DNA of 64,000 nt from an uncultured SAR86 cluster bacterium (GTDB lineage Bacteria; Pseudomonadota; Gammaproteobacteria; Magnimaribacterales; AG-339-G14): positions 69,583 to 133,582 of the forward strand of contig CACJRI010000003.1 of assembly GCA_902595715.1 (NCBI GenBank). Direction: 5' to 3'. The position numbers and the translations under genes were made by a program. Shown here one piece after another: positions 55,895-58,407 of the stretch. How positions within the stretch are numbered: the first letter of the stretch is position 1; each line of letters opens with the position of its first letter. The notes below the pieces were generated by a model. That model was given only the letters and a program-made list of their open reading frames with translations. It had not been told where the DNA came from and ran no database searches.

Positions 55895-56155
55895 TTATCT
55901 CTTCAATACCTTAATAATTTCTTCAACTTTATTCTCAAACTCTTTTTCTCCTCTGAAAGAGTCTTTCACACACTCTTCTAAGTGAGTTTTTAAGATTTTT
56001 CCTTCTACTGAGGCGATAGATTTTCTGACAGCTTTGATTTGATTGAGTATATCGATACAGTATTTTTCCTCTTCAATCATTTTCGCTATACCCCTGAGTT
56101 GACCTTCAATACGCCTTACGCTTGATAATTCTTTTTTGTGATTGGGATGACTCAT
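55895..56155 (-). CDS. csoR: CsoR/RcnR/FrmR-family metal-sensing repressor (Cys-His-Cys, CsoR-like)
   Basis: VRRIEGQLRGIAKMIEEEKYCIDILNQIKAVRKSIASVEGKILKTHLEECV. Confidence 0.85.
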   Translation of the reverse strand: MSHPNHKKELSSVRRIEGQLRGIAKMIEEEKYCIDILNQIKAVRKSIASVEGKILKTHLEECVKDSFRGEKEFENKVEEIIKVLKR

Positions 56156-56161
56156 GATTTT

Positions 56162-56527
56162 TTAAATTATATTAGGAACTAGATAAGTGAATATTGTAGC
56201 AAAAGTAAACAAACTCACTGATAGGTAGTAAATAAATCTAGAACGTTTTCTGGTTTGAAGACAAATTTTCCCTAACTCTGGATCTGCAGGACAAGGAAGA
56301 TAATAGGTTCTGTAATTTATATAGCCAGCAAAAACTAATACAAGAAGGGATACCAAAGTTATAGAAACTTTATATTTTGAAATCACTACTAAAAAAGGGA
56401 ATATAGAAATGATGCTAGCAAAAGTTGCCCCTGCTCCAACAAATATAAATACTGCAGGCAAGGCACAACATATCAATGTAGATGAAGATGCAAACAAAGA
56501 TATGAAATTAGCAGATCGGTCGAACAT
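56162..56527 (-). CDS. MerT-like metal transport membrane protein
   Basis: TM1 with Cys pair STLICCALPAVFIFVGAG; later C-x(8)-C (PCPADPELGKIC); three TM segments. Confidence 0.6.
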   Translation of the reverse strand: MFDRSANFISLFASSSTLICCALPAVFIFVGAGATFASIISIFPFLVVISKYKVSITLVSLLVLVFAGYINYRTYYLPCPADPELGKICLQTRKRSRFIYYLSVSLFTFATIFTYLVPNII

Positions 56528-56528
56528 A

Positions 56529-56936
56529 TTAAATTTTTATCAAGTTATAGTCTGTTGCGTTTTGACCATTCATTAATATTTTTTCTTTGATTTCCTTAAA
56601 TTCAATTTTTTTATCTAAAGAAAAGGCGATCACAACTTTTCCATTTTCAAGATCAACATCTATTTTTTTTACTTTGGTATCTTTGAGAAAAGCCTTTTCA
56701 ATACCTCGGGCACAAAAATCACAGACCATACCTTGAACATTAATTATTGCAACTTGAACATTTTTGAGATTTTTTTTAAATTTATCGAACCTTTCTTTGT
56801 CTAATTTATAATTGTTTCCATCCACGTACACATCATTTTGATGAATCGCATGACCGTGGTGTTCATGAGAATCATGATTTTTTTCAGCAAAAATTATTGA
56901 TGCAGTAAACATTACAATCAAACATATTGGTCTCAT
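56529..56936 (-). CDS. Periplasmic heavy-metal-associated (MerP/HMA-like) protein with His-rich N-terminus
   Basis: Signal peptide; HDSHEHHGHAIH; INVQGMVCDFCARGIEKAF HMA motif. Confidence 0.8.
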   Translation of the reverse strand: MRPICLIVMFTASIIFAEKNHDSHEHHGHAIHQNDVYVDGNNYKLDKERFDKFKKNLKNVQVAIINVQGMVCDFCARGIEKAFLKDTKVKKIDVDLENGKVVIAFSLDKKIEFKEIKEKILMNGQNATDYNLIKI

Positions 56937-56944
56937 ATTTCCTC

Positions 56945-57547
56945 CTAAAATCTGTACATGAGATGAGCATCGGTTCTTGTTTTTTTGTTGTAACCAAGCT
57001 CGATTAAAAAATCGCCTTTAAAAATTTTTACCACAGGATAAGTTGACCAGCTATCTCCTAAAGAATTCTTTTTTGTCTTAAACATCAACCAAGTATGCAA
57101 GTCTCCGTATTTTCCAAGGTAGGGCGCAATGCCGAATTGAAGATACTTTTCAGAAAAATCCATTAAGTCATTGAAGCTTTCTTTATATCCATAGCCAATA
57201 AACCATCTTCTAGTCTCCCAATCGCCATGGAAACCATAAAAATGCCGATCAAAGTTTTCAGGGTCAAAGCCTGATTGAAAATATAAATTGCTTTGAGAAT
57301 TTTGTGTATTTTTTCTGTTTAGCAAATAAGTAAATCTAAAAAAAGAATATTCATCATTAAAATAATCATCTTTTGCTAATTCCAAGCCTACAGAATATTT
57401 AAAACTAGGAGAATAATGAAAATACACTGAATCTTTGTAAATATCCGAATGAGACATCAGCGTATAACCCTCAGGATATGAAATTGGTCTAGCTTGGCTA
57501 TAGAAAGAAGCCAAAAGAAAAAAAAATAATACAAACCTTATACCCAT
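56945..57547 (-). CDS. Predicted secreted/outer-membrane protein of unknown function, first gene of metal operon
   Basis: Signal peptide MGIRFVLFFFLLASFYSQA; alternating aromatic beta-type strands, terminal ...HLMYRF. Confidence 0.6.
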   Translation of the reverse strand: MGIRFVLFFFLLASFYSQARPISYPEGYTLMSHSDIYKDSVYFHYSPSFKYSVGLELAKDDYFNDEYSFFRFTYLLNRKNTQNSQSNLYFQSGFDPENFDRHFYGFHGDWETRRWFIGYGYKESFNDLMDFSEKYLQFGIAPYLGKYGDLHTWLMFKTKKNSLGDSWSTYPVVKIFKGDFLIELGYNKKTRTDAHLMYRF

Positions 57548-57556
57548 GGGGGGTAT
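57540..57556 (-). promoter_or_regulatory. Candidate CsoR-type operator overlapping the start codon of 56945-57547
   Basis: ATACCC-ATGGG-GGGTAT on + strand; TACAAT -10-like hexamer at 57555-57560 on minus strand. Confidence 0.6.
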
Positions 57557-57582
57557 TGTATATCTTTTATTTTTAAAAGTAT

Positions 57583-58407
57583 TTAACCAGCTATACGCTT
57601 AAACATTTTCCCAGTTAAATTAAGAACAGCTTTTCTGCTCATGAAGCTAGTAACGAAATTTAATAATCTGTTGCCTCTGCCGCATAAGACGTATTGTTTA
57701 TCTTTTTCATAACCTTCTAGACATTCCAAAGCGACATCGTGTGAAGTTTGCATAGACATTCCAGAAGCTGAGTTATCTCGATTTTTATACCTTTCCGTTA
57801 GTTCCTCAGATTTTTCTGTAGCTACTCGGGCAAACTCTGATTCCGTTCCTCCAGGAAGAAGCGCCATAACTTTGATATTTTTATCTTGATATTCAAACCT
57901 AATAGCTTCAGAAAACATCAAAACATATGCTTTTGAAGAAGAATAAATACTTGCATATGGTATTGGTGCTAACGAAGCCATTGAACCGACATTTATAATA
58001 CCACCACCACCTTGTCGAACCATATCGGGTAAATACAAATGGCAAAGATCTGTTAGCGTCACAACATTGAGTTGCAACATCTCTGCATAATCATCCCTAT
58101 CAAAGCTAGTTAATTCTCCCCATCTACCGTATCCAGCATTGTTAATTAAGATATCGACAGATAAATTTTGCGATTTTATTTGGTTATATAAAGCTTCAGC
58201 AGAGCCTTGAATAGAAAGATCTTCAATAAAGACATGTGCTCTCCCACCAGACGCTTTAATTTTTTCAGCAAGGGCATGCAATTTATCCTCTGATCTTGCA
58301 GTTAAAATAACTTCCGCTCCTCGTTTATTTAATTCTTCAGCCAAGGCATAGCCTATGCCAGTTGATGCGCCTGTGATTAGGACTTTTTTATCTTTATATA
58401 TACTCAT
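57583..58407 (-). CDS. Short-chain dehydrogenase/reductase
   Basis: VLITGASTGIGYALAEEL, NNAGYG, YSSSKAYV. Confidence 0.92.
   Translation of the reverse strand: MSIYKDKKVLITGASTGIGYALAEELNKRGAEVILTARSEDKLHALAEKIKASGGRAHVFIEDLSIQGSAEALYNQIKSQNLSVDILINNAGYGRWGELTSFDRDDYAEMLQLNVVTLTDLCHLYLPDMVRQGGGGIINVGSMASLAPIPYASIYSSSKAYVLMFSEAIRFEYQDKNIKVMALLPGGTESEFARVATEKSEELTERYKNRDNSASGMSMQTSHDVALECLEGYEKDKQYVLCGRGNRLLNFVTSFMSRKAVLNLTGKMFKRIAG

Follow-up and report, generated by a model that had tools for sequence, protein, structure and literature searches.

The locus described here poses a compact question: is the inverted repeat that encloses the first start codon of a four-gene operon in a SAR86 cluster bacterium the operator of the CsoR-family repressor encoded in that operon, and would the resulting transcript be leaderless? 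The operon lies in the window, i.e., the whole 64,000-nucleotide stretch that was analysed, and its four minus-strand genes end with csoR (Table 1). On the minus strand, the region around the beginning of gene 1 reads GATA-TACAAT-ACCCCCC-ATG-GGTATAAGG. The sequence-only reading had reported an inverted repeat enclosing the gene 1 ATG, and both its coordinates and its sequence proved correct; the TACAAT hexamer, which was said to abut the palindrome, in fact overlaps it by two bases (57556-57555). The operator begins within the -10 box and extends into codon 3. Transcription is expected to start 6-8 nt past the -10 box, at 57547-57549, in agreement with the start ~ 0-2 nt 5' of the ATG that had been predicted. 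Moreover, the operator reads TAC-CCCCCATGG-GTA, and the CsoR-type form claimed for it fits the TAC-X9-GTA rule with G/C tracts, as given in the S. lividans CsoR study (PMC3902906). Its position is not that of an NreA-type spacer operator, which lies between the -35 and -10 elements.

Table 1 Positions of the operon genes and of the regulatory features in the window
Feature	Position	Strand	Basis
Weak -35 candidate, AATACT	57578..57583	-	17-bp spacing
-10-like box, TACAAT	57555..57560	-	TAnnAT conserved at -13 to -8 in relatives
CsoR-type operator, ATACCC-CCCAT-GGGTAT, 17-bp palindrome	57540..57556	-	sequence; half-sites and register invariant in relatives
ATG of gene 1 within the operator	57545..57547	-	sequence
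T9 tract early in gene 1	57518..57526	-	sequence; T9 at the frame break in five sister genomes
Gene 1: secreted protein of 200 aa with C-terminal YRF, probably a small outer-membrane beta-barrel	56945..57547	-	conserved family; model
Gene 2: His-rich, secreted, carrying a heavy-metal-associated (HMA) domain	56529..56936	-	PF00403, E=5e-10
Gene 3: MerT-like membrane protein	56162..56527	-	PF02411, E=6e-4, under the curated cut-off
Gene 4: CsoR-family repressor	55895..56155	-	PF02583, E=1.2e-27, above the curated cut-off

Searches in 101 SAR86-order genomes revealed the palindrome in 36 of them and the control pattern, read backwards, in none (0/101). All 31 genomes with a csoR gene (PF02583) carry the palindrome. 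Among the five remaining exact carriers, G019 and G058 have the operon at a contig end with csoR outside the sequence covered; in G046, G076 and G091, the exact motif occurs solely inside coding ORFs, where the extra exact sites of G043, G046, G076 and G091 also fall. Across 30 SAR86 loci, drawn from three families, neither half-site varies, and position 10 of the 17-mer is always the first base of the start codon, which is ATG everywhere except in L023 (GTG). Six spacer variants were found (CCCAT, CCTAT, CCAAT, TCCAT, CTTAT and ACCAT), all of which preserve the start codon; codons 2 and 3 are forced to GGT-ATN, and the gene 1 protein starts with MGI or MGM. The upstream sequence beyond the promoter signals is mostly unconserved across these loci. 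The operon itself is patchy within the genus of the window: neither csoR nor gene 1 is seen in 10 of the 16 genomes (G002, G005, G006, G008, G009 and G011-G015), several of which are more than 90% complete.

Is the arrangement confined to SAR86 and to a single operon type? The same start-codon register was detected outside SAR86, in several further families of Gammaproteobacteria (G145/L060, G103/L062, G353/L063, G241/L064 and G342/L066), and in the SAR86 genome G079 (L040:1974-3602), an identical arrangement precedes an independent operon type, whose products are a membrane protein with DUF4396, CsoR and a cation-diffusion facilitator. Natural controls are provided by four homologous g1-hma-merT loci with no csoR in the sequence covered (L065, L067, L068 and L009): they possess neither the palindrome nor an MG[IM] start, and in three of them (L067, L068 and L009), GGAG is found upstream of the start. 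In the CsoR protein tree, all 19 start-codon-type repressors fall on one side of a single branch (95/93 support, 98% of bootstraps), which, in a tree with few columns, fits a single origin. Among the class-wide palindrome matches, L049, L057 and L058 have no g1 or csoR match within the locus; at L059, the site precedes a CopA-like ATPase, whose likely start is apparently not embedded. Other gammaproteobacterial CsoR-family operons (L079, L081, L084, L087, L090, L095, L096 and L100-L102) likewise adjoin an operator, TACC-N7-GGTA, but their nearest start codon lies 14-65 bp downstream of it, not inside, and in several of them TTGAC immediately precedes the operator, as expected of a spacer operator. 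On the + strand of L092 (1732-1746), TACCCCCAGTGGGTA contains a GTG; the 91-aa frame that starts there (MGIKGSRI) runs divergently from a CsoR-family gene, and a -10 box is lacking. This site may be due to chance or may be a second case of the start-codon arrangement.

The residues Y32, C33, H58, C62 and E79 of the repressor are invariant across 17 homologues and form the Cu(I)-CsoR pattern, with Cys-His-Cys as the metal ligands and Tyr and Glu in the second shell; on the basis of the phmmer offset, we take them to be the counterparts of Y35, C36, H61, C65 and E81 of the M. tuberculosis protein. The best solved relatives are copper CsoRs, the nearest being S. lividans CsoR (4adz, E=6e-17). In that protein, R54, R57 and Q81 are DNA-contact residues and R54 is important for DNA binding (PMC3902906); the equivalents of R57 and Q81 are retained here as R15 and Q39, and the equivalent of R54 is Ser12. 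Judging from the C33/H58/C62 and Y32/E79 pattern, Cu(I) is the likeliest inducer, and other metals are also possible because His6 near the N-terminus is invariant. Because csoR closes the operon, it would be autoregulated. The direct autoregulation through a blocked core promoter that had been proposed for this operon gains support, since the palindrome tracks csoR and overlaps the conserved TAnnAT box.

Another important point is where transcription would begin. When one locus per genus was considered, TA was present at -13/-12 in 16 of 17 genera (p ~ 1e-13 against the local background, a nominal value, as the genera are related), and together with the operator's own AT it makes a TAnnAT box that spans -13 to -8 relative to the ATG and shares two bases with the operator. 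A Shine-Dalgarno motif (GGAG/GAGG/AGGA) was found upstream in none of these 17 loci; on its own this is weak evidence, because such motifs are infrequent in the window anyway (14 of 56 ATG genes). The background statistics for both Shine-Dalgarno and promoter signals are based on the 64 kb window. The best -35 matches at a spacing of 15-18 bp summed to 64 versus 48.4 ± 3.4 in shuffled sequences (0/2000), and the score peaked at and within one base of this register. TTGACA was present in L063 and L066 and TTGACT in L060; good -35 boxes occur in relatives only, and that of the window matches TTGACA at 2 of 6 positions. A -10 box ~ 7 bp before the start codon, a -35 signal across relatives and no Shine-Dalgarno motif together point to a leaderless mRNA, for which we infer a start 0-2 nt before the ATG. 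Overall, there is good support for a leaderless mRNA whose core promoter CsoR would block.

The palindrome could also be a CsoR operator on an mRNA that does have a leader, with transcription starting further upstream or reading through from the SDR gene and CsoR acting as a roadblock. Such a situation would be compatible with the weak -35 of the window and with the SDR gene, which ends just 35 nt upstream of gene 1 on the same strand. It is nevertheless unlikely, given that TAnnAT is fixed at -13 to -8 with a -35 at matching spacing in other genera, that the upstream neighbours differ among genera and include a tRNA 3' end, and that no locus has a Shine-Dalgarno motif. Far less probable still is a repeat that works in RNA, as a hairpin masking the start codon, or one kept solely for the N-terminus of the protein. 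The repeat does flank the AUG, and its arms could pair in a leadered RNA, but they are invariant, with 0 compensatory changes in 30 loci, and the hairpin was rejected on this absence of covariation. Furthermore, the 5' arm would be missing from a transcript starting at the ATG, the bases 5' of the ATG are conserved as well, which the protein sequence does not demand, and neither the repeat nor an MG[IM] start survives in the csoR-less homologues.

Finally, the palindrome could be a product of chance in an AT-rich genome (1.21 Mb, 1,208,559 bases; 33% GC), where hexamers such as TACAAT are frequent. The genome scan suggested in the sequence-only reading returned a single exact copy, located at the csoR operon, against 0.012 expected for the whole genome under a first-order Markov model; the palindrome is also conserved in several families and is lost along with csoR, and coincidence was rejected as an explanation. 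Allowing one mismatch in ATACCC-N5-GGGTAT added two sites, both within coding ORFs, and the shorter TACCC-N5-GGGTA with one mismatch gave 8 sites versus 22 for the reversed control, and of the seven with a mismatch, the four that were examined (L107-L110) all lie in open frames. Further regulon members in the genome were rejected on these grounds, i.e., the coding location of the extra sites examined and the rarity of the shorter motif relative to its reversed control. Since no second convincing operator was found with either pattern at one mismatch, the CsoR regulon appears to consist of this operon alone.

We consider it very probable that the CsoR of this operon uses the palindrome as its operator, with the repressor excluding RNA polymerase, the metal releasing it, and the mRNA being leaderless. 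Apo-CsoR would sit across the last bases of the -10 box, the transcription start and codons 1-3, thereby keeping RNA polymerase off; Cu(I) or another thiophilic metal would free CsoR from the DNA, and the transcript would then begin at the ATG or within 2 nt of it and be translated leaderless. The operator would double as the start codon and thereby fix Met-Gly-(Ile/Met). The palindrome, the fixed register of the start codon, the -10/-35 signals, the lack of a Shine-Dalgarno motif and the coupling to csoR are all directly visible in the genomes compared; CsoR binding, the identity of the metal and the leaderless 5' end are what we infer. Against this explanation speak the weak -35 of the window, the general infrequency of Shine-Dalgarno motifs there, Ser12 at the R54 position, and an ATG that is out of frame in five sister genomes.

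Six genomes of the window's genus carry the operon, and in these five of them (L011-L015), a 10-codon frame, MGIRIIFFFA*, begins at the operator ATG. Its TAA overlaps an ATG in the four sequences checked base by base, and gene 1 resumes one base out of frame immediately past a T9 tract. The downstream gene 1 protein is under purifying selection, with dN/dS of 0.05-0.10 among four of the five genomes (the motif filter dropped L014). One added T in the transcript would yield MGIRIIFFFCLMASLYSQARPISY, an ordinary signal peptide, and runs of nine are of a length recognised for transcriptional slippage in many bacteria (PMC1088944). It is possible that transcriptional slippage or reinitiation restores gene 1 in L011-L015; an assembly artefact common to all five seems unlikely, because separate single-cell and metagenome assemblies are involved.

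What, then, might the operon do? Gene 1 has no Pfam or NCBIfam match; it encodes a signal peptide, ~ 10 predicted strands and a C-terminal YRF. The alignment behind its structure model is shallow (pLDDT 57.5), and the Foldseek matches were generic small barrels, so no function was assigned from the model; with low to moderate confidence, the predicted protein resembles a small outer-membrane barrel. Taken together, the genes look like an envelope metal route in which this putative barrel is joined by an HMA protein in the periplasm and a MerT-like protein in the inner membrane. In two SAR86 genomes, a PepSY-TM-like gene directly follows the operon and overlaps the end of csoR (L046:3212-3889 and L047:3195-3854, the latter match being slightly under the curated cut-off). 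The usual target of CsoR is a copper P-type ATPase, which is common though not strictly defining. A search for E1-E2 P-type ATPases (PF00122) gave no match in the genome of the window (G000, 83% complete) or in eight relatives that carry csoR (G016, G017, G040, G041, G043, G044, G050 and G062; 92-97% complete), whereas all 14 control genomes gave one. With no match in nine genomes, CopA, the usual CsoR target, seems to be absent here. A broader scheme, in which CsoR controls a metal route free of P-type ATPases through an operator that is itself the leaderless start codon, and in which barrel synthesis in some species needs RNA polymerase slippage at T9, is conceivable, though, taken as a whole, we lean against it.

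How does this arrangement compare with known systems? In csoR-cueA of Bradyrhizobium liaoningense, as here, a CsoR box, TATACCCCTACCGGGTATA, lies over the -10 element, and 5' RACE placed the csoR start at the A of the ATG, i.e., the transcript is leaderless (PMC5057107). There, however, the promoters are divergent, the box is upstream of the start and overlaps the -10 elements, and the target is a P-type ATPase (PMC5057107), whereas in SAR86 the operator encloses the start codon of another first gene, with csoR in last place. The Mesorhizobium nreA operon also belongs to an autoregulated CsoR/RcnR-family system and is leaderless according to 5' RACE, but it is nickel-responsive, and its operator, TATCC-N9-GGATA, lies in the -35/-10 spacer and does not include the ATG (PMC12724321). 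S. lividans CsoR (PDB 4adz) shares operators of the TAC-X9-GTA form with two G/C tracts but controls copZA-type efflux operons (PMC3902906); start-codon embedding is not known to be described for it. Leaderless CsoR-family genes with an operator over or beside the core promoter are therefore already established (Bradyrhizobium csoR and Mesorhizobium nreA). What appears to be new is the inclusion of the start codon in the operator, as a conserved trait of one CsoR clade across Gammaproteobacteria and in two operon types, and its occurrence in genomes where a P-type ATPase was not found. The open-access literature, to which the search was confined with subscription papers outside it, yielded no description of a start-codon-containing CsoR operator and no paper that treats SAR86 together with leaderless expression.

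In this module, a repressor site, a core promoter, a start codon and an N-terminal protein sequence appear to be fused within ~ 20 bp and kept across several families. Leaderless expression conserved within Gammaproteobacteria would have a clear genomic example in it, and the promoter module is compact and directly testable. It also hints at a way in which streamlined bacteria that abound in the ocean and have no detectable P-type ATPase might deal with copper.
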